Source of the DNA: Marinobacter nauticus
GTDB lineage: Bacteria; Pseudomonadota; Gammaproteobacteria; Pseudomonadales; Oleiphilaceae
Direction: 5' to 3'
Assembly: GCF_003634635.1 (NCBI RefSeq)
Contig: NZ_RBJB01000003.1
Location: 186,001-250,000 of the forward strand
DNA: 64,000 bases
Under the pieces are notes generated by a model. It worked only from the letters and a program-made list of their open reading frames with translations, did not search any database and was not told the DNA's origin. Within the stretch, counting starts at the first letter, position 1. Every line of letters starts with the position of its first letter. Of this stretch, positions 4,517 through 45,615 are shown one piece after another. The translations under genes were made by a program, and so were the position numbers.

Positions 4517-4711
4517 GGTGACTATGCACGCCTTTTGTCTGGTTAACGGCCGGGGCCGGTTACTACCCGAAGCTGGCTCAGCCGGGAACACCCAAAATGT
4601 GATCTGATAATAGCAAGCATCAACCGTAACAGCGAAGCTGTGAAACAATTTCTATACACTGCGCCGGGTTTGGTAGACTACCGCGCTTTATGATCGCAAG
4701 AGTCTCCCGGA

Positions 4712-12437: not shown

Positions 12438-12475
12438 AACCAAAAAGGGCGAGATCATTCTCGCCCTTTTTGGTT
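12438..12475. terminator. Bidirectional intrinsic terminator between fimX and serB
   Basis: A perfect 17 bp stem (12438-12454 with 12459-12475) closes on a TCAT loop. The GGGCGAGA/TCTCGCCC core is flanked by A-rich and T-rich ends, so it can work on both strands. It lies between the convergent fimX and serB stops. Confidence 0.9.
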
Positions 12476-35481: not shown

Positions 35482-35577
35482 CCGGGGTACAGCCTTCCGG
35501 GACACGCCGTAAATGCGTCCGTGTAGGCTTGAGCGCAGCTTCCCTGCTGCGCACAGTCCCGGAAGGCTGTACCCCGG
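35482..35577 (+). repeat. Structured repeat copy 1 (type A core, forward)
   Basis: Perfect 22 bp arms (35482-35503 and 35556-35577) enclose a 52 nt core. The inner arm end is TTCCGGGAC. The core contains a small hairpin around TCC and a 7 bp hairpin GCGCAGC/GCTGCGC. The outer stem extends by a further GCGC pairing after an internal loop. It lies between atuA and atuB, about 75 nt after the atuA stop and 55 nt before the atuB start. Confidence 0.85.
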
Positions 35578-35631
35578 CGGAGCGCCCGAACGTTTTTCGT
35601 GGATTCTTTGGATTGGAATAGGGAATTTTGT

Positions 35632-36498
35632 ATGAGTTATCAGTCTGTTCTTCGCCCGGGCTTGTTTGAAGGCCAGGTTTTTATTGTCACCGGTGGCGGT
35701 TCGGGGATTGGCCGCTGCACGGCTCACGAACTGGCGGCGCTCGGTGCCCGGGTTGCGCTGGTGGGTCGTAAGCAGGAGAAGGTAGACGCGGTTAAGGCCG
35801 AAATTGAGGAAGACGGCGGTATTGCCAGCGCCCATGCCTGCGATATTCGCGAGGAGGAGTCGGTCAAGACCACGGTGAAGGCCATTATTGAGACCCACGG
35901 CGGTCTGAACGGGGTGGTGAACAATGCCGGCGGGCAGTTTGCGTCTCCGTTAACAGGCATTAACCAGAAGGGGTGGGAAACCGTGGTGCGCACGAACCTG
36001 ACCGGCGGTTTTCTGATTTCCCGGGAGGCCTATACCCAGGCCTTGAGTAAAACCGGCGGTTCGATTGTGAACATTGTGGCGGATATGTGGGGTGGTATGC
36101 CTGGCATGGGCCACTCAGGGGCCGCACGGGCCGGGATGGTGAATTTTACCCAGACGGCCGCGGTCGAATGGGCGCCGTCCGGGGTTCGGGTGAATGCGGT
36201 GGCGCCGGGGTGGATTGCGTCCAGCGGGATGGACAACTACCCGACCCATATGAAGTCGTGGATTCGCAGCCTGGCGGATGCGGTGCCGATCAAGCGGATG
36301 GGTACAGAATCAGAGGTGAGTTCGGCGATCTGTTTCCTGCTTAGCCCGGGCGCGGCGTTTATCAGTGGTGATTGTCTGCGGATTGACGGCGCGGCGTCCC
36401 AGGGTGGGCGTGTGTGGCCGATGCCGAAGGCGCAGAATAACGAGCCCTATAACGGTTTCCATCGGGCGGTAACGCCGAAAGTGTTGAGTGACGACTGA
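35632..36498 (+). CDS. atuB: Short-chain dehydrogenase AtuB
   Basis: A 288 aa SDR enzyme. The cofactor motif VTGGGSGIG is at about 21-29, NNAG near residue 103, and the catalytic region around 150-170 is atypical, reading MWGGMPGMGHSGAARAGMV where a YxxxK motif is expected. In P. aeruginosa AtuB is assigned to terpenol or downstream hydroxy-intermediate oxidation. The start at 35632 (MSYQSVLRPGLF) has AGGG upstream; the longer frame enters the repeat spacer. Third positions are about 69% G or T in the first 58 codons (my hand count). Confidence 0.9.
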   Translation: MSYQSVLRPGLFEGQVFIVTGGGSGIGRCTAHELAALGARVALVGRKQEKVDAVKAEIEEDGGIASAHACDIREEESVKTTVKAIIETHGGLNGVVNNAGGQFASPLTGINQKGWETVVRTNLTGGFLISREAYTQALSKTGGSIVNIVADMWGGMPGMGHSGAARAGMVNFTQTAAVEWAPSGVRVNAVAPGWIASSGMDNYPTHMKSWIRSLADAVPIKRMGTESEVSSAICFLLSPGAAFISGDCLRIDGAASQGGRVWPMPKAQNNEPYNGFHRAVTPKVLSDD

Positions 36499-36507
36499 GG
36501 ATTTCCC

Positions 36508-38124
36508 ATGCAGGTACTGGAAACAACAATAAGCCCCCAGTCCGACGAGTTCCGGGCCAATGTCGAGGCCATGGAAGCGCATATCTCGACTTTCCGGGAT
36601 GTGGAGCAAAAGGTTCTGGACCTGGCGGAATCGGCCCGGGAGAAGTTTACCAAGCGAGGCAAGCTGCTACCGCGGGATCGCATCAATCGGTTGCTGGATC
36701 GTGGCAGTGAGTTTCTGGAGCTGTGCTCCCTGGCCGGTTACAAGATGCATGATGACAAAGACGGTTCCATGGCCGGAGGCGGGATTATTGCCGGCATCGG
36801 CAGAGTAGCCGGAGTACGCTGCCTGGTGGTCGCAAGCAACAGTGCCATCAAGGGCGGAACCATTACTCCCGCCGGTCTGGACAAAACCCTGCGACTGCAG
36901 CAGATCGCCATGGAGAACAAATTGCCGGTGGTATCGCTGTCAGAATCCGGCGGCGCCAACCTGAACTATGCCACCGATATCTTCGTGCTGGGCGCCCGGG
37001 GCTTTGCGAACCAGGCCCGGATGTCTGCAGCCGGTATTCCACAGGTAACCGTCGTCCATGGCAACGCCACTGCCGGCGGGGCCTATCAGCCGGGCCTGTC
37101 GGATTACGTAATTACCGTACGCGAGCAGGCGAAGATGTTCCTGGCCGGCCCGCCGCTTTTAAAAGCCGCGACCGGTGAGGTCGCCACCGATGAGGAACTG
37201 GGTGGAGCAGAAATGCACGCCACCGTTGCCGGCACCGCCGAATACCTGGCGGAAGACGATGCGGATGGCATCCGCCAGGCCCGGGAGATTCTGGGCGCCC
37301 TGCCCTGGAACGAAAACCTGCCACTACGCCAGGAACCACAGTGGGATGAGCCGCTGTATCCGGCGGAAGAGCTGCTGGGCGCAATTCCTTCCGATGCCAA
37401 GAAACCCTACGACGTGCGCGAGATCCTCGCCCGCATCGCCGACGGCTCTCGATTCCTGGATTTCAAGAACGATTACGACAGCCAGACGGTGTGCGGCACC
37501 ATCCGGATTCACGGCCACAGTGTAGGTATTATCGGCAACAACGGCCCGATCACCCCTGCCGGCTCCACCAAGGCTGCGCAGTTTATCCAGCTTTGCGATC
37601 AGGCAGGCACGCCTATTCTGTTTCTGCATAACACCACCGGATTCATGGTCGGCACCCACTCCGAACAGAACGGCATCATCAAACACGGGTCGAAGATGAT
37701 TCAGGCCGTGGCGAACTGCCGGGTACCAAAACTCGCCGTGGTGGTGGGCGGTTCCTACGGCGCCGGCAACTACGCCATGTGCGGCCGGGGCCTGGACCCG
37801 AGATTCATCTTCGCCTGGCCCAACAGCCGCACCGCCGTCATGGGCCCCGCGCAGGCCGGGAAAGTCATGCGCATCGTGGCTGAAGAAAAACAACGCAAAA
37901 GCGGTATCGAGCCGGACGAAAAGACCCTGTCGTTCCTGGAACAGGCGACCGCCAAAAAGCTGGAAGACGGTTCCACCGCCCTTTACGGCACGGCCAGGCT
38001 CTGGGACGACGGCCTGATCGATCCGCGGGATACCCGCCGTGTCCTGGCCATGGTGCTTTCCGTTTGCCGTGAAGCCGAACAACGACCACTGCGACCCAAC
38101 GTTTACGGCGTCGCCCGTTTCTGA
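36508..38124 (+). CDS. atuC: Geranyl-CoA carboxylase beta subunit (carboxyltransferase)
   Basis: A 538 aa carboxyltransferase of the acyl-CoA carboxylase family, which transfers CO2 from biotin on AtuF to the gamma-methyl of cis-geranyl-CoA. Two crotonase-like halves are visible. The acyl-CoA-binding oxyanion regions include SLSESGGANLNY and GNATAGGAYQPGLSDYV in the first half; IGNNGPITPAGSTKAAQF, LHNTTGFMVG and GGSYGAGNYAMCGRGLDPRF are in the second. It follows atuB by 9 nt. Methylcrotonyl-CoA carboxylase (liu/mcc) is the close alternative, but the complete atu gene order makes AtuC the better call. Confidence 0.92.
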   Translation: MQVLETTISPQSDEFRANVEAMEAHISTFRDVEQKVLDLAESAREKFTKRGKLLPRDRINRLLDRGSEFLELCSLAGYKMHDDKDGSMAGGGIIAGIGRVAGVRCLVVASNSAIKGGTITPAGLDKTLRLQQIAMENKLPVVSLSESGGANLNYATDIFVLGARGFANQARMSAAGIPQVTVVHGNATAGGAYQPGLSDYVITVREQAKMFLAGPPLLKAATGEVATDEELGGAEMHATVAGTAEYLAEDDADGIRQAREILGALPWNENLPLRQEPQWDEPLYPAEELLGAIPSDAKKPYDVREILARIADGSRFLDFKNDYDSQTVCGTIRIHGHSVGIIGNNGPITPAGSTKAAQFIQLCDQAGTPILFLHNTTGFMVGTHSEQNGIIKHGSKMIQAVANCRVPKLAVVVGGSYGAGNYAMCGRGLDPRFIFAWPNSRTAVMGPAQAGKVMRIVAEEKQRKSGIEPDEKTLSFLEQATAKKLEDGSTALYGTARLWDDGLIDPRDTRRVLAMVLSVCREAEQRPLRPNVYGVARF

Positions 38125-38154
38125 TTTCCACACTGATTTACCGGGAGAACAACA

Positions 38155-39315
38155 ATGAAATTCACAGCCGAACACGAAGCCCTCAGAAAGACCGTCCGCG
38201 ATTTTGTCGAAAAGGAAATCAATCCTCACTGCGATGAATGGGAAGAGGCCGGCGAATTTCCCATTCACGACCTGTTCAAGAAACTCGGCAACCTGGGCCT
38301 GCTGGGCATCCAGAAGCCGGAGGAATACGGCGGCATGGGCCTGGATTACAGCTACAACCTCGTGGCTGCTGAAGAACTGGGCATGGCCAAGTGCGGCGGT
38401 GTTCCGCTAGCCGTGGGCGTACAGACCGACATGTGTACCCCCGCGATTGCGCGCTTCGGTTCCGATGAATTGAAACGGGATTTCCTGGCCCCGGCTATTG
38501 CCGGCGATATGGTGGGCTGTATCGGTGTGAGTGAAGTGGGCGCAGGCTCCGATGTGGCCGGCCTGAAAACCACGGCTAAGAAAGACGGCGATGACTACGT
38601 CATCAACGGCTCCAAGATGTGGATCACCAACTCCCCGAAAGCGGATTTCATGTGTCTGCTGGCCAACACCAGCGACGACAAACCCCACAAGAATAAAACC
38701 CTTATGATCGTGCCCATGAACACACCGGGCATCACCTTCAGCCCGCACCTGAACAAGCTGGGCATGCGCTCATCAGAAACCGCCCAGGTGTTTCTGGACG
38801 ACGTGCGAATTCCCCAACGCAACCGCATCGGCGCAGAAGGCACCGGCTTTATGATGCAGATGCTGCAGTTCCAGGAGGAGCGCATGTGGGGGGCCGCCAA
38901 CGTAATCAAGGCCCTGGAAAACTGTGTCACGCAGACCATTGAATACTGCCGCGAGCGCAAGACCTTTGGCCAGCCGCTGATCGACAACCAGTACATTCAT
39001 TTCCGCCTGGCGGAGTTACAGACCGAAATCGAAGCGCTGCGCGCGCTGACCTATCAGGCCTGTGAGCTGCACATTGAGGGCAAAGATGTCACCAAGCTGG
39101 CGTCGATGGCGAAACTGAAGGCCGGGCGTCTGGGTCGAGAAGTGACCGATGCTTGCCTTCAGTTCTGGGGTGGCAACGGTTACATGTGGGACAACCCCCT
39201 GTCACGGGCTTACCGCGATGTGCGGTTGGTCTCCATCGGCGGCGGTGCCGACGAAATCATGCTGGGCATCATCTGCAAGCTGATGGGCACCTTACCTGGC
39301 AAGAAACGCGACTAA
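38155..39315 (+). CDS. atuD: Citronellyl-CoA dehydrogenase AtuD
   Basis: A 386 aa FAD-dependent acyl-CoA dehydrogenase that would oxidise citronellyl-CoA to geranyl-CoA. Family blocks are IGVSEVGAGSDVAGLKT (FAD/substrate loop), NGSKMWITNSPKADF, and the C-terminal LQFWGGNGYMWDNPLSRAYRD, which carries the region of the FAD-binding helix. Spacing from atuC is 30 nt. The catalytic glutamate position cannot be assigned with certainty by eye. Repeat copy 2 follows 30 nt after the stop. Confidence 0.92.
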   Translation: MKFTAEHEALRKTVRDFVEKEINPHCDEWEEAGEFPIHDLFKKLGNLGLLGIQKPEEYGGMGLDYSYNLVAAEELGMAKCGGVPLAVGVQTDMCTPAIARFGSDELKRDFLAPAIAGDMVGCIGVSEVGAGSDVAGLKTTAKKDGDDYVINGSKMWITNSPKADFMCLLANTSDDKPHKNKTLMIVPMNTPGITFSPHLNKLGMRSSETAQVFLDDVRIPQRNRIGAEGTGFMMQMLQFQEERMWGAANVIKALENCVTQTIEYCRERKTFGQPLIDNQYIHFRLAELQTEIEALRALTYQACELHIEGKDVTKLASMAKLKAGRLGREVTDACLQFWGGNGYMWDNPLSRAYRDVRLVSIGGGADEIMLGIICKLMGTLPGKKRD

Positions 39316-39345
39316 CGTTTGGAGTTTGGAGTCAGGCCTCGCGGT

Positions 39346-39437
39346 CAGGTAGGGCTTTCCGGGACACGCTGTGAATACATCCATGTACGCTTGACTGCAG
39401 CATCCCTGCTGCAGACAGTCCCGGAAAGCCCTACCTG
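39346..39437 (+). repeat. Structured repeat copy 2 (type A core, forward)
   Basis: Perfect 20 bp arms (39346-39365 and 39418-39437) enclose a 52 nt core, same length as copy 1 and identical at about 41 of 52 positions. Differences are compensatory in hairpin 2 (CTGCAGC/GCTGCAG versus GCGCAGC/GCTGCGC in copy 1). The inner arm end TTCCGGGAC is shared with copy 1, while the outer arm is different. It lies between atuD and atuE. Confidence 0.85.
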
Positions 39438-39498
39438 CCCCCAAGGCCCCGAACATTGCGACTGGTACCCGATTGCCGCCCGAAAACGGAGCCTTTTT

Positions 39499-40314
39499 AT
39501 GGAACAGCTACCCCAGTGCGAAACCCTGATTCTTGAAAAACAGGGCCCCACCCTGTTCATCACCATCAACCGCCCCGACGTCCGCAACGCCATGAGCCTG
39601 CAAATGGTGGCTGAACTGTCCACCATCTTCAGCGAGATCGAAAACGACACCAGCATTCGCGCCGCCGTCATCCGCGGCGCAGGTGGACACTTCTGCGCCG
39701 GCGGCGATATCAAAGACATGGCCGGCGCCCGGGGCCAGAAAGCCGGCGAAGGCCGCGACGACCCGTTCTACAAACTCAACCGCGCCTTCGGCCAGATGAT
39801 CCAGCAAGTCAACGAATCCTCCAAAGTCGTCATCGCCATCACCGAAGGCGCCGTCATGGGCGGCGGCTTCGGCCTGGCCTGCGTCTCCGACCTGGCCATC
39901 GCCGGCCCGACTGCCAAATTCGGTATGCCGGAAACCACCCTCGGCGTCATCCCGGCCCAGATCGCCCCGTTCGTTGTCGAACGCATCGGCCTGACCCAGG
40001 CCCGTCAACTGGCCTTGCTGGGTTTGAGAATCGACGCAACGGAAGCCTGCAAACTCGGCATCGTTCACCAGGTTGCGGAATCCGAAGAACAGCTAAGCGA
40101 CATGCTGAACCAGGCTCTGGAACGGGTACGCCTGTGCGCCCCCGATGCCACGGCAGAAACCAAGGCCCTACTGCACCGAGTGGGACATGAAGCCATGGCC
40201 GGTTTGCTGGATGACGCCGCTGAAAAATTCGCGGCCGCCATCCGCGGGCCCGAGGGCATGGAAGGCACTATGGCGTTCATGCAAAAGCGTGAGCCAAAGT
40301 GGGCCGAGAGTTAA
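39499..40314 (+). CDS. atuE: Isohexenylglutaconyl-CoA hydratase AtuE
   Basis: A 271 aa crotonase-family hydratase that adds water to isohexenylglutaconyl-CoA, the product of geranyl-CoA carboxylase. Oxyanion-hole blocks are AAVIRGAGGHFCAGGDIKDM and EGAVMGGGFGLACVSDLAIA. I chose the ATG at 39499 because GGAG lies 7 nt upstream; the longer frame runs backward through repeat copy 2. Third codon positions are about 76% A or C in the first 72 codons (my hand count), the opposite of atuB and the end of atuH. Confidence 0.9.
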   Translation: MEQLPQCETLILEKQGPTLFITINRPDVRNAMSLQMVAELSTIFSEIENDTSIRAAVIRGAGGHFCAGGDIKDMAGARGQKAGEGRDDPFYKLNRAFGQMIQQVNESSKVVIAITEGAVMGGGFGLACVSDLAIAGPTAKFGMPETTLGVIPAQIAPFVVERIGLTQARQLALLGLRIDATEACKLGIVHQVAESEEQLSDMLNQALERVRLCAPDATAETKALLHRVGHEAMAGLLDDAAEKFAAAIRGPEGMEGTMAFMQKREPKWAES

Positions 40315-40382
40315 CGAATACAAATATTAAACAAGCCACTGAACAATCATTGGGCAGGCAAACACCCAAGGTCGCGGGAGCG

Positions 40383-40490
40383 CCACTGGCGGGATAAGCC
40401 TCCGGAAAATTTCGAAGGCCAAGGATGGCCTGAGAGAAGCGCACAGGGATGTGCTCGTAGCGGTTTTCCGGAGGCTTATCCCGCCAGTGG
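40383..40490 (-). repeat. Structured repeat copy 3 (type B core, reverse)
   Basis: Perfect 27 bp arms (40383-40409 and 40464-40490) enclose a 54 nt core in reverse orientation relative to copies 1, 2 and 4. The two core hairpins read GGCCAAGGATGGCC and GCACAGGGATGTGC on the plus strand. The arms are unrelated in sequence to those of copies 1 and 2. It lies between atuE and atuF, ending 51 nt before the atuF start. Confidence 0.85.
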
Positions 40491-40541
40491 TGCGGACGAA
40501 CACCAACCTGGGGCGGTCCAGTAACAAGGTAGATAACGCTT

Positions 40542-42500
40542 ATGCTAAAAAAACTACTAATCGCTAACCGAGGCGAAATCGCCGTCAGGGTCATCCGCAC
40601 AGCCAAAGCGCTGGGCTACCGAACCGTTGCCGTCTACTCCGAAGCCGACGCCAACACCCTGCACGTTGAACAAGCCGACGAAGCCGTCTGCATCGGCCCG
40701 GCACAGGTTGCCGCCTCCTACCTCAACGCCGACGCCATCCTCGATGCCGCAAAGAAAACCGGCGCCGACTGCATCCACCCGGGCTACGGCTTCCTCTCTG
40801 AAAACTCCGGCTTCGCCAAAGCCGTCAAACAGGCCGGCCTCACCTTTGTAGGCCCTCCCGAAAACGCCATTGAACTCATGGGCAGCAAACGCCGCTCGAA
40901 AATCGCCATGCAGGAAGCCGGCGTGCCCGTAGTCCCTGGCTACGAAGGCAACAACGCTAGTGATGATGAACTCATCGCCGCAGCCCAGGACATCGGCTAC
41001 CCCCTCATGCTCAAAGCCTCCGCAGGTGGCGGTGGCCGGGGCATGCGCCTGGTCGAGAGCGAGAGCGAGTTGGCCGACAACATTAAAAGGGCCCGCTCAG
41101 AAGCCAAACAGGCCTTCGGTGACGACGAACTGATCATCGAAAAAGCGGTCATCGAACCCCGGCACGTGGAAATCCAGGTTTTCGCAGACCACCACGGCAA
41201 CGCCGTTTACCTGGGCGAGCGGGACTGCTCCGTACAGCGCCGGCACCAGAAAGTGGTTGAAGAAGCGCCCTCACCTTTTGTCACCCCGGAACTGCGTAAG
41301 GCCATGGGCGAAGCTGCTGTCAAAGCGGCCCTGGCCTGCGGTTACGAGGGCGCCGGTACCGTGGAATTCCTGGTCGACAAAGACCGCAATTTCTACTTCC
41401 TGGAAATGAACACTCGCCTGCAGGTAGAACATCCGGTCACCGAACTGATTACCGGCCAGGATCTGGTGGCCTGGCAGTTGATGGTCGCTGAAGGCCGCCC
41501 GCTGCCTCTGGCCCAGGATGACATCCAACTCAATGGCCACGCCATCGAAGTGCGACTTTACGCCGAAGACCCGGCCAGTGGTTTCACCCCGCAAACCGGT
41601 ACCCTGCACCAGTTCACCCCGGCCGAAGGCGAAGGCCTGCGGTTTGATACCGGCGTGCGCTCCGGTGACGTGGTCAGCCCCCACTACGATCCCATGCTGG
41701 CGAAAGTCATCGCCTGGGGCCAGAACCGGGACGAAGCCCGTCGCCGCCTGATCCGGGCGCTGGAAGACACCACAGTCTTTGGTGTGACCACCAACCGCCA
41801 TTTCCTCAGCCGCATCATCGCCGATGACACCTTTGGTGCCGGTGAAGCCACCACGGCCTTCCTGCAGCAGGCCTTCAAGAATGATCCGTCACTGGCGCCC
41901 CAGCCGCTCACCATCCGCGAGCTGGCCCTGAGCGCCTGCGCATTGAGCCTCGGCCAATCCGCCCAGAAAGGCTGGAGTAACGCCCCCGCCACCGTCATGC
42001 CGATGAAGCTTGAGGCCCGGGACGAAACCGTGGAACTGCTGGTTCGGCACAGTGGCCACAAACTGCTGGTGGCCCACGGCGAAGAACACTATGAATTGCA
42101 ACTGCAAAGCCAGGAACCAGGCCTGCTGTGCATTATCGACAACGGGGTTCGTCAGCGGTGCCAATACTACCGGAGCGGAGATTCCCTATATTTGCAGGCG
42201 TTCGGCCGTTCCTGGTGCGTTCGGGATATTACGCACCAACCCGCCCAAGGTGCCCTGGGCACCGGCAGCGGCAAGGTCCAGGCCACTATGGACGGTGCCA
42301 TTATTGATGTACTGGTGGCAGAGGGAGATCAGGTGGAACAGGGCCAGACCCTGGTGATTCTGGAAGCCATGAAAATGGAGCATCCGGTTAAGGCGGATCG
42401 CAGGGGCACCGTTGGCCAGTTGCTCGCCCGCAAAGGAGACCAGGTCAAGCGTGGCCAACTTCTGGCAGACGTGCAGTCCACTGAGGAGGCAGCATCATGA
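40542..42500 (+). CDS. atuF: Geranyl-CoA carboxylase alpha subunit (biotin-containing)
   Basis: A 652 aa biotin-dependent carboxylase subunit. The N-terminal biotin carboxylase domain begins KLLIANRGEIAVRVIR and has the glycine-rich ATP loop KASAGGGGRGMRLV and the EMNTRLQVEHPVTEL block. The C-terminal biotin carboxyl carrier domain ends with the biotinylation motif LEAMKMEHP. It works with AtuC. The stop overlaps the atuG start by 4 nt (ATGA). The 5' 450 nt are rich in C- and A-ending codons, fading further in. Confidence 0.92.
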   Translation: MLKKLLIANRGEIAVRVIRTAKALGYRTVAVYSEADANTLHVEQADEAVCIGPAQVAASYLNADAILDAAKKTGADCIHPGYGFLSENSGFAKAVKQAGLTFVGPPENAIELMGSKRRSKIAMQEAGVPVVPGYEGNNASDDELIAAAQDIGYPLMLKASAGGGGRGMRLVESESELADNIKRARSEAKQAFGDDELIIEKAVIEPRHVEIQVFADHHGNAVYLGERDCSVQRRHQKVVEEAPSPFVTPELRKAMGEAAVKAALACGYEGAGTVEFLVDKDRNFYFLEMNTRLQVEHPVTELITGQDLVAWQLMVAEGRPLPLAQDDIQLNGHAIEVRLYAEDPASGFTPQTGTLHQFTPAEGEGLRFDTGVRSGDVVSPHYDPMLAKVIAWGQNRDEARRRLIRALEDTTVFGVTTNRHFLSRIIADDTFGAGEATTAFLQQAFKNDPSLAPQPLTIRELALSACALSLGQSAQKGWSNAPATVMPMKLEARDETVELLVRHSGHKLLVAHGEEHYELQLQSQEPGLLCIIDNGVRQRCQYYRSGDSLYLQAFGRSWCVRDITHQPAQGALGTGSGKVQATMDGAIIDVLVAEGDQVEQGQTLVILEAMKMEHPVKADRRGTVGQLLARKGDQVKRGQLLADVQSTEEAAS

Positions 42501-43321
42501 GCCGGCTACAGCAGCGCACAGTGTTTATAACCGGCGGCAGCCGGGGAATCGGCCGGGCCATTGCCCTGGCCTGTGCCCGGGAAGGCGCCAACGTGGTCAT
42601 TGCAGCGAAAACCGATACCCCGCATCCGAAACTACCCGGCACCATCCACACGGTCGCTGAGGAAATTCGCAACGCCGGAGGCCAGGCGCTACCGCTGGTA
42701 CTGGACGTGCGGGATGAACGACAGGTCCGCCAGCGAATAGACGAAGCCGCCGGTTATTTTGGCGGTATCGATGCCCTGGTGAACAACGCCGGGGCGATAC
42801 GCCTGACCGGTGTCGAAAACCTGAAAGTGAGCCGATACGACCTGATGCATCAGGTCAACGCCCGGGCCGTATTCACCTGCAGTCAGGCGGCCCTGCCCTG
42901 GCTGAAGGAATCCGGTGGCCACATTCTCAGCCTGTCGCCGCCGCTGAACCTGAATACCCGGTGGTTTTCCCAGTACGGGCCATACACCACCACAAAATAC
43001 GGAATGACCATGCTCAGCATGGGCATGGCCGAGGAGTTCCGACGCTATGGCATTGCCGTGAACTGCCTGTGGCCAAAGACTCTGATTGCCACTGCCGCCA
43101 TAGAACACGAAGTGGGCGGACCTCAATTGATGGCGCAGGGACGAAAGCCGGAAATCATGGCCGATGCTGCGGTCAGCATACTGTCCCGCAGTGCGGACGA
43201 ACTGACCGGGCAAGCGCTGATTGACGAGGATGTACTTCGTCAGGATGGCGTGAAGGACTTCGAACACTACCGGTATGCCGCAGGCGACAAGCCACTGCTG
43301 CCGGATCTGTTCCTGGATTAG
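42497..43321 (+). CDS. atuG: Short-chain dehydrogenase AtuG
   Basis: A 274 aa SDR of the HSDL2-like group. The cofactor motif FITGGSRGIGRAIA is near the N terminus, NNAGAIRL near residue 95, and a YGPYTTTKYGMTML segment holds the catalytic YxxxK (YTTTK). It likely oxidises a hydroxy intermediate or terpenol in the same pathway; AtuG's exact substrate is not established to my knowledge. Translationally coupled to atuF through ATGA. It ends 68 nt before atuH. Confidence 0.88.
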   Translation: MSRLQQRTVFITGGSRGIGRAIALACAREGANVVIAAKTDTPHPKLPGTIHTVAEEIRNAGGQALPLVLDVRDERQVRQRIDEAAGYFGGIDALVNNAGAIRLTGVENLKVSRYDLMHQVNARAVFTCSQAALPWLKESGGHILSLSPPLNLNTRWFSQYGPYTTTKYGMTMLSMGMAEEFRRYGIAVNCLWPKTLIATAAIEHEVGGPQLMAQGRKPEIMADAAVSILSRSADELTGQALIDEDVLRQDGVKDFEHYRYAAGDKPLLPDLFLD

Positions 43322-43389
43322 CCGCGGAGCAATGGGTTGGTCCGCGGTTCAAAACCTACAAAGACAATGACGACTGAAACGGACGCACC

Positions 43390-45219
43390 ATGAGCCAAGA
43401 CATCGTAACCGCACGCGACATCATGCGCAGCCTGCCCACGGTTCTGAAAAAATTTCCCTTCGTGGCAAAAGGGCTTTACTACTACCGGGTAAAGGACGAC
43501 AAAAAAGAGCTGACCCTTGGCAAGCTGGTAGAGCGCAACGCTGACAAACACCCCACGCGCCCTGCCATTCTCTTCGATGATCGCAGCATTACCTGGGCAG
43601 AACTGGATGCCTGGAGCAATCGAATTGCCCATTACCTGAAAGATCAGGGGCTGGTAAAGGGCGATGCCATTGCGGTACTGCTGGAAAACCGACCGGAACT
43701 ACTGGCGACCGTGGTTGGCGCAGCCAAGGTCGGCGTGGCCTGCGCCATGCTGAACACCTCCCAGAAAGGCAAAGTGCTGGCCCACAGTATCAACCTGATC
43801 GAGCCACGACTGCTGGTGGTTGGTAGCGAACTGATCGACAATGCCGAGTCGGTTCGTGGAGAGGTTCAGCTCCGGCACACGCATCCCCTGCTCTACCTGC
43901 ACGACGGCAACACTCTGAACACCTTTGGTGACGCACCGGAGGGCTACGTCAATCTGGCCCTGGAAGTCAGCCGCCGGCCCTCAACCCGACCGGTCCTGAG
44001 CAACGCGGTAACCATGGGCGATACCGCCGTGTATCTTTACACCTCAGGCACCACCGGCCTGCCCAAGGCGGCGCCCGGTTCACATCGCAAATTTATCAAA
44101 GCCTACGGCGGCTTTGGCATGCTCTCCCTGGCCATGGAACCGGAAGACGTCCTGTACTGTACGCTGCCGCTGTATCATGGCACCGCCCTGCTGGTGTGCT
44201 GGGGCTCGGTCCTCGCCGGTGGCTCTGCCATCGCCCTGCGCCGAAAATTCTCCGCCAGCGCCTTCTGGGACGACGTCCGCCGCTACAACGCCACCACTTT
44301 CGGCTACGTGGGCGAGCTGTGCCGCTACCTGCTGAATCAACCTCCCGGCAGCCAGGACCGCAACCACGGCCTGACCAAAATGATCGGCAACGGCCTGCGC
44401 CCCTCCATCTGGAAAGAATTCAAGGAACGCTTTGGCATCGACAAGGTGGCTGAACTGTATGCCTCATCAGAAGGCAATATCGGCTTCAGCAACTTTTTCA
44501 ACATGGACAACACCGTGGGCTTCTCCACCGCGCCCTACAAACTGGTCAAGTACCACGAAGGCACCCGGGACCCGATCCGCAACGACAAGGGCCGTCTGGA
44601 GGAAGTGGAAAAAGGCCAGCCCGGCCTGTTGATCGGGGAGATCAACAAGAAGTGGGCATTCGAGGGCTACACCCAGAAGGAAGCCACTGAGAAATCCATC
44701 CTGCGCGATGGTTTCAAGAAAGGCGATGCCTGGTTCAATACCGGTGATGTATTAAAAGAAATCGGCTGCCGTCACCTGCAGTTTGTCGATCGCATGGGCG
44801 ACACCTTCCGCTGGAAGGGAGAGAACGTATCGACGACGGAGGTGGAAAATATCATTGATGGCTCCGGCATGGTGGAGGAAGCCATTGTGTACGGGGTCGA
44901 GATTCCCAAAACCAACGGCAAGGCGGGCATGGTAACGCTGGTGCCTCAGTCCAATGGTTCGGCGTTCGATATCAACAAGCTGTTTGGTTATCTTCAGGAG
45001 AATCTGCCGGCCTATGCGGTGCCGGTGCTTGTGCGGGTGACCAATGCCATCGAGAAAACGGGAACGTTCAAGTACCGGAAGGTGGACATCCAGAAGCTCG
45101 GCTATTCGCTGGAGCGGTCAGAAGACGATGTGTACGCCTGGCTGCCCGGTTCGTCCGGTTATACGTTGCTGACTCCGGAGCTAGTCTCGGATATTGATTC
45201 GGGGGATGTTCGGTTTTGA
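43390..45219 (+). CDS. atuH: Very-long-chain-type acyl-CoA synthetase AtuH
   Basis: A 609 aa AMP-forming ligase of the FATP/ACSVL group, which would activate citronellate or geranate to the CoA ester. The P-loop-like motif YLYTSGTTGLPKAAPGSHRK is near residue 215, an ELYASSEGNIGFSNF adenylate block near 355, and FVDRMGDTFRWKGENVSTTE marks the hinge. It closes the atu operon. Over the last 72 codons, G or T occupies about 71% of third positions (my hand count), unlike atuE. Two structured repeats lie downstream. Confidence 0.9.
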   Translation: MSQDIVTARDIMRSLPTVLKKFPFVAKGLYYYRVKDDKKELTLGKLVERNADKHPTRPAILFDDRSITWAELDAWSNRIAHYLKDQGLVKGDAIAVLLENRPELLATVVGAAKVGVACAMLNTSQKGKVLAHSINLIEPRLLVVGSELIDNAESVRGEVQLRHTHPLLYLHDGNTLNTFGDAPEGYVNLALEVSRRPSTRPVLSNAVTMGDTAVYLYTSGTTGLPKAAPGSHRKFIKAYGGFGMLSLAMEPEDVLYCTLPLYHGTALLVCWGSVLAGGSAIALRRKFSASAFWDDVRRYNATTFGYVGELCRYLLNQPPGSQDRNHGLTKMIGNGLRPSIWKEFKERFGIDKVAELYASSEGNIGFSNFFNMDNTVGFSTAPYKLVKYHEGTRDPIRNDKGRLEEVEKGQPGLLIGEINKKWAFEGYTQKEATEKSILRDGFKKGDAWFNTGDVLKEIGCRHLQFVDRMGDTFRWKGENVSTTEVENIIDGSGMVEEAIVYGVEIPKTNGKAGMVTLVPQSNGSAFDINKLFGYLQENLPAYAVPVLVRVTNAIEKTGTFKYRKVDIQKLGYSLERSEDDVYAWLPGSSGYTLLTPELVSDIDSGDVRF

Positions 45220-45270
45220 TCCTGACTTTTGGAGAGGGGCCTCATAACCTAGCCTGCAACGCTTGGTGAC

Positions 45271-45380
45271 AGTGAGTACGGGGTGCCCCTCCCAAAAACC
45301 GCTACAAGCACATCCATGTGCGCTTCTCTCCGGCCATCCATGGCCTCCGACATTTTTGGGAGGGGCACCCCGCACTCACT
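45271..45380 (+). repeat. Structured repeat copy 4 (type B core, forward)
   Basis: Arms of 28 bp (45271-45298 and 45353-45380) pair at 27 positions with one A/C mismatch and enclose a 54 nt core. Core hairpins are GCACAT-CC-ATGTGC and GGCCAT-CC-ATGGCC. An outer CTTGG/CCAAG pairing extends the stem after an internal loop. It lies 51 nt after the atuH stop. Confidence 0.85.
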
Positions 45381-45462
45381 TCCGAGCCAAGGAGTGATAG
45401 TCAGTTTACTGAAAAACCTAGCTTTTCTCCCTGACTATTACTGCGAAGCTGACCGGCCGTGA

Positions 45463-45556
45463 TGGGGAACGCTTCCAAAAAATTTTGAGGGCCATGGATG
45501 GCCCGAAATAAGCGCACATGGATGTGCTTGTAGCGGTTTTTTGGAAGCGTTCCCCA
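45463..45556 (-). repeat. Structured repeat copy 5 (type B core, reverse)
   Basis: Perfect 20 bp arms (45463-45482 and 45537-45556) ending inward in A6/T6 enclose a 54 nt type B core in reverse orientation. Hairpins are GGCCAT-CC-ATGGCC and GCACAT-CC-ATGTGC. The outer arm (TGGGGAACGCTTCC) is unique to this copy, and a GGCCG/CGGCC pairing extends it after an internal loop. It is 59 nt from the quinone oxidoreductase stop. Confidence 0.85.
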
Positions 45557-45615
45557 GCGCGGCCCACACCGAAACCTAAAGGCTAGGAGGGAGGCTACCC
45601 CTCAGGCTCCAAGAA

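Follow-up and report, generated by a model that had tools for sequence, protein, structure and literature searches.

Five copies of a long inverted repeat, with arms that are complementary within each copy but that differ between copies, lie within about 10 kb of the Marinobacter nauticus genome (assembly GCF_003634635.1), and this raises the question of what the repeat is and how its two arms stay matched. The window analyzed here is the whole 64,000-nucleotide stretch of contig NZ_RBJB01000003.1 from positions 186,001 to 250,000, and all coordinates refer to this window. Our analysis indicates that the five sequences belong to a large family of repeats scattered through Marinobacter and many other gammaproteobacterial genomes. 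Each is a long hairpin tipped with two loops of the kind that the global RNA regulator CsrA binds, and its two sides change together, apparently because DNA copying rebuilds one side from the other.

All five copies predicted originally were recovered. The strand given for each is the folding strand, which we refer to as the GGA strand. Copy 1 (35482 to 35577, minus strand) has perfect 22-bp arms at 35482 to 35503 and 35556 to 35577 and a 52-nt core at 35504 to 35555. Copy 2 (39346 to 39437, minus strand) has perfect 20-bp arms at 39346 to 39365 and 39418 to 39437 and a 52-nt core at 39366 to 39417. Copy 3 (40383 to 40490, plus strand) has perfect 27-bp arms at 40383 to 40409 and 40464 to 40490 and a 54-nt core at 40410 to 40463. 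Copy 4 (45271 to 45380, minus strand) has 28-bp arms with one mismatch at 45271 to 45298 and 45353 to 45380 and a 54-nt core at 45299 to 45352. Copy 5 (45463 to 45556, plus strand) has perfect 20-bp arms at 45463 to 45482 and 45537 to 45556 and a 54-nt core at 45483 to 45536. Copies 4 and 5 are the left and right members of an inverted pair separated by a spacer at 45381 to 45462. In 27 of 28 listed pairs closer than 300 bp (several of them orthologs of one another), the GGA strands point outward from the spacer, and an outer repeat, CCTAGCCTG/CAGGCTAGG, was seen around some pairs.

To determine whether such structures could arise by chance, we searched the window for perfect inverted repeats with arms of 16 bp or more and spacers of 3 to 200 nt. 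Seven were found: five are these elements, a sixth joins elements 4 and 5, and the seventh is an unrelated 17-bp palindrome at 12438. Twenty dinucleotide shuffles gave none. Either strand of each copy folds 7.75 to 11.25 standard deviations below its shuffles. The observation that prompted this study is thus confirmed, with one exception. The original prediction included an extra short GC pairing outside an internal loop in at least four copies, but such pairing outside the arms is hardly more frequent than between mismatched flanks (a Watson-Crick run of 5 or more in 24% of 181 elements against 21%, and of 6 or more in 6% of both), and we rejected an outer basal stem. Two core types, A and B, had been proposed and had been said to align with each other. 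They do align once copies 3 and 5 are reverse-complemented, but they are one element in two orientations rather than two separate types. The inner-arm sequence TTCCGGGAC is indeed shared by copies 1 and 2, although the inner arm is conserved in most of 74 aligned copies.

We next examined how widely the element is distributed, since the finding of only five copies without relatives had been named beforehand as grounds for rejecting its novelty. This was not the case: there are 54 strong copies in this genome, and matches were found in 60 of 61 genomes of the genus and in 48 of 274 genomes sampled from the class (this genome included). A core-only pattern search of the genome gave 14 hits (0 for the reversed pattern), and 13 of the 14 have arms of 20 to 30 bp with at most two mismatches, so the arms are not an artifact of searching for arms. 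A generic core query gave no match in plasmids, Escherichia coli genomes, or phages, although the query was short and the BLAST low-complexity filter was on, so that this absence is weak evidence.

The original prediction also knew of no name for the element, but that it has no relative with a name was not supported. It resembles the Rfam family TwoAYGGAY (RF01731), which likewise has two adjacent hairpins with A-N-GGA-Y loops enclosed by a long, poorly conserved outer stem on the same strand. It has been proposed to bind CsrA (PMC4333381) and is listed as probably RNA and probably not cis-regulatory (PMC2864571). Subthreshold matches to this model were found at 18 places in this genome (best, 40.6 bits; copy 5, 28.7 bits), but none reached the gathering score of 43 in the window, in this genome, or in 20 loci of other families, and below the cutoff the model also gave a signal in 1 of 14 control genomes. 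The architecture and the A-GGA-Y of the loops fit the family, and the first N of the loop is Y in 125 of 181 5' hairpins and 100 of 181 3' hairpins. The stem and junction sequences differ from those of TwoAYGGAY, and here the element is an interspersed repeat with dozens of copies per genome. The Yersinia sRNA family Ysr224 (RF02770), listed among the 20 most prevalent sRNAs (PMC9029176), has a consensus that contains the type A core read on the opposite (ATCC) strand. It matched weakly (23.3 bits, on the other strand of copy 2), far below its cutoff of 70, and the family model ends soon after the core. Rows for mir-642, mir-193, Ms_IGR-4, snoZ247, and H19_2 were set aside as chance, as the two microRNA rows fit long hairpins, the other three lie outside the elements, and all score below the cutoff. 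We found no paper describing this repeat family; a study of Alcanivorax sRNAs (PMC9788540) describes different CsrA-related RNAs.

Inspection of the cores revealed that 181 of 185 elements carry two GGA hairpins with CANGGANG loops on one strand, and that these are 23 to 25 nt apart in 174 of the 181. The loop A and the closing C-G are present in at least 177 of 181, whereas the first N takes all four bases (GGA was required, and the closing positions had to pair, when loops were picked). This matches the published CsrA/RsmA consensus (RUACARGGAUGU, an ANGGAX hexaloop, with bridging of 10 to 63 nt), and the spacing is one that a single CsrA dimer can bridge. A CsrA gene is present in 53 of 53 genus genomes that are at least 90% complete and at most 5% contaminated, although one of the genus genomes, G049, has CsrA but no element. 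As in the CsrA decoy RNAs of the CsrB/RsmZ type, GGA lies in ANGGAN hexaloops closed by C-G, but here there are only two sites, on dispersed copies. In consensus scans, no conserved promoter or terminator was found at a fixed distance, and the promoter score upstream of the GGA strand was no better than on the other side and slightly worse (P = 0.04); a dedicated promoter is not supported. The GGA strand is sense and antisense to flanking codirectional genes equally often (52 against 51).

In order to determine how the arms change, we compared copies within and between genomes. On 74 elements, 17 of 18 arm pairs show two-sided changes and 98.6% of arm cells pair, G.U included, although these rows were picked by an arm-based finder. 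A further comparison was made in G190, a genome outside Marinobacter with dozens of near-identical copies. Among 35 copies counted there were 5 matched double substitutions (4 of them transversions) and 7 single events in 2,030 sites, a rate near that of core singletons (6 of 1,872), and 0.024 doubles would be expected from independent mutation. Three copies that the finder had missed add two single events, making 9 singles in 38 copies and, by our arithmetic, 0.027 doubles expected. One copy (L336) has lost the same base pair from both arms, and the core is inverted relative to its flanks in 8 of 36 classifiable copies; such inversion was clear in G190 only. In G158, also outside Marinobacter, there were 10 doubles against 12 singles, 6 of these 12 from one chimeric copy. 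Among Marinobacter orthologs with flanks of 92% identity or more and conserved outer arms (20 pairs, 491 positions), there were 7 doubles and 6 singles, against 0.068 doubles expected.

These counts have limits. The element finder needs a perfect 7-nt inner arm, so that single changes there are undercounted (shown for G190; the Marinobacter counts carry the same bias), and it missed copies L020, L133, L218, and L220 of this genome and L362, L365, L367, and L372 of G190. Of the 44 G190 matches, 38 were counted; L336 and L358 were set aside for indels, L367 and L370 were set aside as diverged, one has other arms (L269 at 655), and one was not retrieved. Of one set of 80 loci, only L025 to L027 were used. 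The Marinobacter double/single count and the constraint estimate given below used only ortholog pairs with conserved outer arms, so arm divergence there is biased low. Many orthologous pairs were left out of the arm counts as replaced alleles: 8 of 24 at a flank identity of 94% or more, 35 of 57 at 88 to 94%, 173 of 206 at 80 to 88%, and 172 of 184 at 70 to 80%. At two G190 positions one copy carries a mismatch where another carries the matched pair, so some pairs may arise in two steps.

The mismatches that remain in the arms differ between the strands. In 209 Marinobacter elements, 55 are G.U on the GGA strand, 5 are G.U on the other strand, and 24 are of other kinds. The bias holds by gene context (sense, 14:0; antisense, 16:1; convergent, 13:2; divergent, 8:0), although in the two small classes "inside" and "edge" it is 2 against 1 each. 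Folding of the GGA strand is thus probably selected too. Outside Marinobacter the bias is weak or absent: 8 against 3 in 32 elements, 4 against 2 copies in G190 counting one edge position, and 2 against 3 in G158 without the chimera.

Taken together, we consider it somewhat more likely than not that the five sequences are copies of one dispersed repeat whose GGA strand folds into a 20- to 30-bp stem capped by a junction with two small hairpins, and whose arms are maintained by copying. The sequences themselves establish the architecture, the loop consensus, the spread of the family, matched changes in the two arms at rates far beyond independent mutation, core inversion in one genome, and strand-biased wobble tolerance in Marinobacter. 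The remainder is inference. In this view, replication stalls at the hairpin and switches template to the other arm, copying a mutation into it or erasing it (quasipalindrome template switching), which would explain why arms diverge freely between copies yet remain nearly perfect within each, and selection then keeps copies whose GGA strand folds well. The most speculative step, inferred from sequence alone, is that this strand, when transcribed, acts as a binding site or decoy for CsrA/RsmA. The original interpretation is partly supported: the element is neither a terminator nor a classical RAYT-dependent REP, and both forces that had been proposed, selection on structure and a copying process that rebuilds one arm from the other, leave traces.

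Template-switch maintenance of RNA hairpins has been put forward before (Monttinen and Loytynoja 2022; PMC8794818) and predicts perfect stems, matched multibase changes, and loop inversion. That study speaks of rRNA and microRNA and calls the evidence for stem maintenance circumstantial, whereas here it is a repeat family with many recent copies to compare. How both sides of an RNA stem change together is an old question, and a repeat with 20- to 43-bp stems and dozens of near-identical copies in one genome gives many replicate stems in which single and matched changes can be counted, and which could be followed on a plasmid. If the loops do bind CsrA, tens of dual sites per genome would be an unaccounted-for load on a global regulator in many Gammaproteobacteria. 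A broader reading, which is not excluded but which we regard as unlikely, is that gammaproteobacterial genomes carry a dispersed array of dual-site CsrA landing hairpins whose long stems are continually rebuilt by template switching, and are thus kept folded without stepwise compensatory mutation, with the collective copy number tuning Csr activity species by species. Recently multiplied copies would then show, nearly event by event, how compensatory changes in RNA stems arise.

The alternative that survives best, although we consider it doubtful, is pure selection on RNA structure, in which mutations hit the arms independently and compensatory mutations are fixed one at a time because the folded RNA is useful. 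Strand-specific G.U tolerance is consistent with this notion, as are a core divergence of 0.74% against 4.3% just outside in 20 conserved ortholog pairs and the G.U intermediates seen between genomes G000 and G111. However, matched changes exceed the independent expectation about 100-fold in Marinobacter orthologs and roughly 200-fold in G190, and several are transversions without a wobble route. Single arm changes in G190 are about as frequent as core changes, so selection against them there is weak, and a matched one-base deletion is very unlikely by two hits.

Less likely still is that the GGA strand is a single-stranded DNA transposition substrate, a hairpin recognized by a transposase or recombinase (REP/RAYT-like or attC-like), such that only folding copies move. 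Matches per genome vary from 0 to at least 68, occupied and empty orthologous sites were seen, the near-identical G190 copies have shared, repeated flanks, and the GGA strand also folds slightly better with DNA parameters (145 of 181). However, a search confined to the Y1 family found no Y1/RAYT transposase in this genome, with its 54 elements, or in 12 of the 34 genus genomes with 55 or more matches, and RAYT dependence was rejected. Among 36 copies of this genome with arms of 25 bp or more, no two share the outer arm (best, 11 of 14 nt), so recent movement with arms is not seen here. With regard to a MITE, which would have terminal inverted repeats, a target duplication, and a related autonomous element, the observations are the shared repeated flanks in G190 and the outer repeat around some pairs, with the transposase search confined to the Y1 family. 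REP/BIME elements with RAYT, and CGTC repeats, also are short palindromic intergenic repeats with many copies and inverted pairs (PMC3733652, PMC2817692), but the stems here are about 20 to 43 bp instead of 5 to 13 bp, and there are two inner hairpins and no dependence on Y1 transposase.

A terminator or messenger end-protecting hairpin between genes is very unlikely. The element is found more often between convergent (54) than divergent (26) genes, and in G111 an element (L198) stands where this genome has an ordinary hairpin (L116) between convergent genes. However, no T-run at a fixed position follows the stem on either side, only one strand shows wobble tolerance even where the other strand is the one read from the neighbors, and the loops would not need a CsrA consensus. 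The notion that arms are made at insertion by inverted duplication of the flanking target, suggested by arms outside Marinobacter that look arbitrary and reach 43 bp (one, in L285, seemed to read as a gene end, although an open-frame scan did not list it), is largely refuted, since copies within G158 and G190 and three of four seen in genome G309 have related arms, Marinobacter arms share a G-rich consensus, the two empty sites (among those seen) that carried arm-like sequence are better read as deletion remnants, and orthologous elements with different arms share orientation at single sites.

We first established whether the five copies predicted in the window could be recovered. All five were found where they had been placed, with the cores and arms originally described, and the observation is confirmed. 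To determine how unusual such structures are, we searched the window for perfect inverted repeats with arms of 16 bp or more and spacers of up to 200 nt. Seven were found, whereas 20 dinucleotide shuffles of the window contained none. Five of the seven are these elements. A sixth joins copies 4 and 5 and is a 32-bp perfect inverted repeat made by their opposed cores (window positions 45294-45325 and 45510-45541). The seventh, at window positions 12438-12475, is a 17-bp perfect palindrome with a 4-nt loop that is unrelated to the elements. When copies 3 and 5 were reverse complemented, all five copies proved to be one element. The original prediction also proposed an extra short pairing outside the arms, but this was hardly above chance. 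Its interpretation, that either selection on structure or a process rebuilding one arm from the other maintains an element without a known name, is partly supported by the analyses that follow. The five window copies lie in and beside a gene cluster that includes atuA (acyclic terpene utilization), carboxylase, acyl-CoA dehydrogenase, and enoyl-CoA hydratase genes.

A search with the core sequence alone found 14 places in the genome, with none for the reversed pattern, and 13 of the 14 have arms of 20 to 30 bp. A covariance model built from 24 copies then found 66 matches in the genome, 54 of them strong (77 bits or more); nine of the 12 weaker rows are the same places on the other strand. The same model matched 60 of 61 genomes of the genus, which is taken to be Marinobacter because the closest named loci are Marinobacter, with from 3 to at least 68 matches where present, 68 being the number of candidates scored; one genome (G049) has none. 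A second model, built in the other orientation, matched 48 of 274 genomes of the class, including the present genome. It also matched 17 of 299 genomes drawn from the phylum, an unstated number of which lie outside the class, and all 17 belong to the same class. Elements are several times denser than the genome average in two stretches, one at 1370065-1540154 of contig 1 in the genome designated G013 and the other at 109039-277085 of contig 2 in the present genome. In the genome designated G574, six elements lie in a row about 227 bp apart (contig 1, 94426-95650), forming a tandem array.

In order to determine which strand matters, we examined the mismatches in the arms. Of 185 distinct Marinobacter elements, 129 had perfect arms. 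Of the mismatches, 50 were A.C on the ATCC strand, which is G.U on the GGA strand, 3 were the reverse, and 21 were other. With more loci, the counts were 55, 5, and 24 in 209 elements (two-sided binomial P of about 1e-11 for 55 against 5, treating mismatches as independent). The bias held in the four gene contexts (sense, 14:0; antisense, 16:1; convergent, 13:2; divergent, 8:0) and was 2:1 in each of the two small remaining classes. A DNA process blind to strand would give equal numbers. The bias is weak or absent in other families. The GGA strand also folds better as RNA in 162 of 181 elements and, less clearly, as DNA in 145 of 181.

Further inspection of the conserved head revealed that, on the GGA strand, 181 of 185 elements have two hairpins with a GGA loop. 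The loop is CANGGANG. In the two hairpins, the A is present in 178 and 181 of 181 elements and the closing C-G in 178 and 177, and both N positions vary; GGA itself and some pairing at the closing positions were required by the selection. The GGA-to-GGA spacing is 23 to 25 nt in 174 of 181 elements. The SELEX consensus of CsrA is RUACARGGAUGU, and CsrA bridges sites 10 to 63 nt apart, best above 18 (PMC7652899). RsmE prefers an ANGGAX hexaloop directly on a stem (PMC4005645). The related Rfam family TwoAYGGAY has been proposed as a CsrA binder (PMC4333381). CsrA was found in 59 of 61 genomes of the genus and in all 53 that are at least 90% complete and at most 5% contaminated. The present genome carries a second, divergent CsrA-like gene (contig 1, 1042299-1042460) besides the canonical one on contig 7.

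Orthologous sites show both occupied and empty states. Between the present genome and the genome designated G111, with flanks of about 87 to 97% identity, many elements are the same allele, and many others differ in arms and often in core type; a few locus pairs (L186/L215 and L232/L123) share outer arms but not core type. At one site (locus L198), G111 has an element between convergent genes where the present genome (L116) has an ordinary short hairpin. Single-element sites keep the same orientation in this comparison, and across Marinobacter single-element sites, 388 ortholog pairs agree in orientation and 13 do not, although pairs are not independent. At one site (window positions 39316-39460, compared with a region near 4571 of locus L164 in the genome designated G101), the element and adjoining intergenic sequence look identical in the two genomes, although the flanking sequence differs by about 10%. 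This suggests exchange of a very short tract, and whole alleles thus appear to move between species. Among 20 conserved allele pairs (flanks of 92% or more), 491 arm positions show 7 matched double changes and 6 single ones, 5 of the latter being G.U on the GGA strand, whereas independence predicts 0.068 doubles. Three of the seven doubles come from one pair, so they are not all independent events, and single changes in the innermost 7 nt are missed by the element finder that was used.

The clearest case is a genome of another family, G190, which has about 40 copies nearly identical in 31-bp arms and core. In 35 copies without indels, we counted 5 matched double substitutions, 4 of them transversions, and 7 single events inside the arm, at a rate (7 of 2030) near that of core singletons (6 of 1872); independence predicts 0.024 doubles. 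The finder had dropped three more such copies because of a single change near the core, and with these included there are 9 single events in 38 copies and, by our arithmetic, 0.027 doubles expected. Of the two copies set aside for indels, L336 has lost the same base pair from both arms, and L358 carries a matched change plus a one-sided deletion. Two older copies, L367 and L370, carry further matched transitions and also unmatched changes and were not counted. Two of the matched changes have a partner copy with only one side changed (L311 on the same contig as L353, L323 beside L305), so copying may act on an existing mismatch. In 8 of 36 classifiable copies, the core is inverted relative to the flanks. 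In G190 the element sits inside a larger nested-hairpin repeat (L269, L302 to L312, and others) whose flanks are shared between copies, some of them near contig ends. Recombination between copies also occurs, as copy L381 in a further genome (G158) joins arms of two subfamilies. Copies within G158 and G190, and three of four seen in the genome designated G309, have related arms, so copy-specific arms are best read as divergence from shared arms.

Homogenized arms and inverted spacers are what template switching between inverted repeats does (PMC8604942, PMC8794818), although ordinary recombination between the arms could also invert the core. The matched changes, the strand bias, and the structure of the head are read directly from sequence, whereas the copying mechanism and any binding or regulatory role involving CsrA are inferred. 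We consider the copying mechanism probable, but the CsrA role is only a tentative suggestion. Against the latter, orientation to genes is random (52 sense, 51 antisense, 54 convergent, 26 divergent, 19 inside a predicted frame, and 7 at edges), no promoter or terminator signal was found, and one genome has CsrA without the element. Y1/RAYT transposases are not required. The head is a known type of RNA motif, and the mechanism is a known type of mutation. New here, as far as our literature searches show, are the repeat family itself in Gammaproteobacteria, its strand-biased arms, and the many replicate stems in which matched changes can be counted.

Elements closer than 300 bp form inverted pairs, with the GGA strands pointing outward in 27 of 28 listed cases, several of them orthologs. 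Some pairs, such as those at 10514-10760 of L164 and at window positions 45215-45600, are enclosed by CCTAGCCTG/CAGGCTAGG and carry TAGTC...GACTA inside the spacer. In the pair spacers of loci L174 and L178, a different palindromic repeat (GTAGGTCGGATTAGCC...) lies between two elements.
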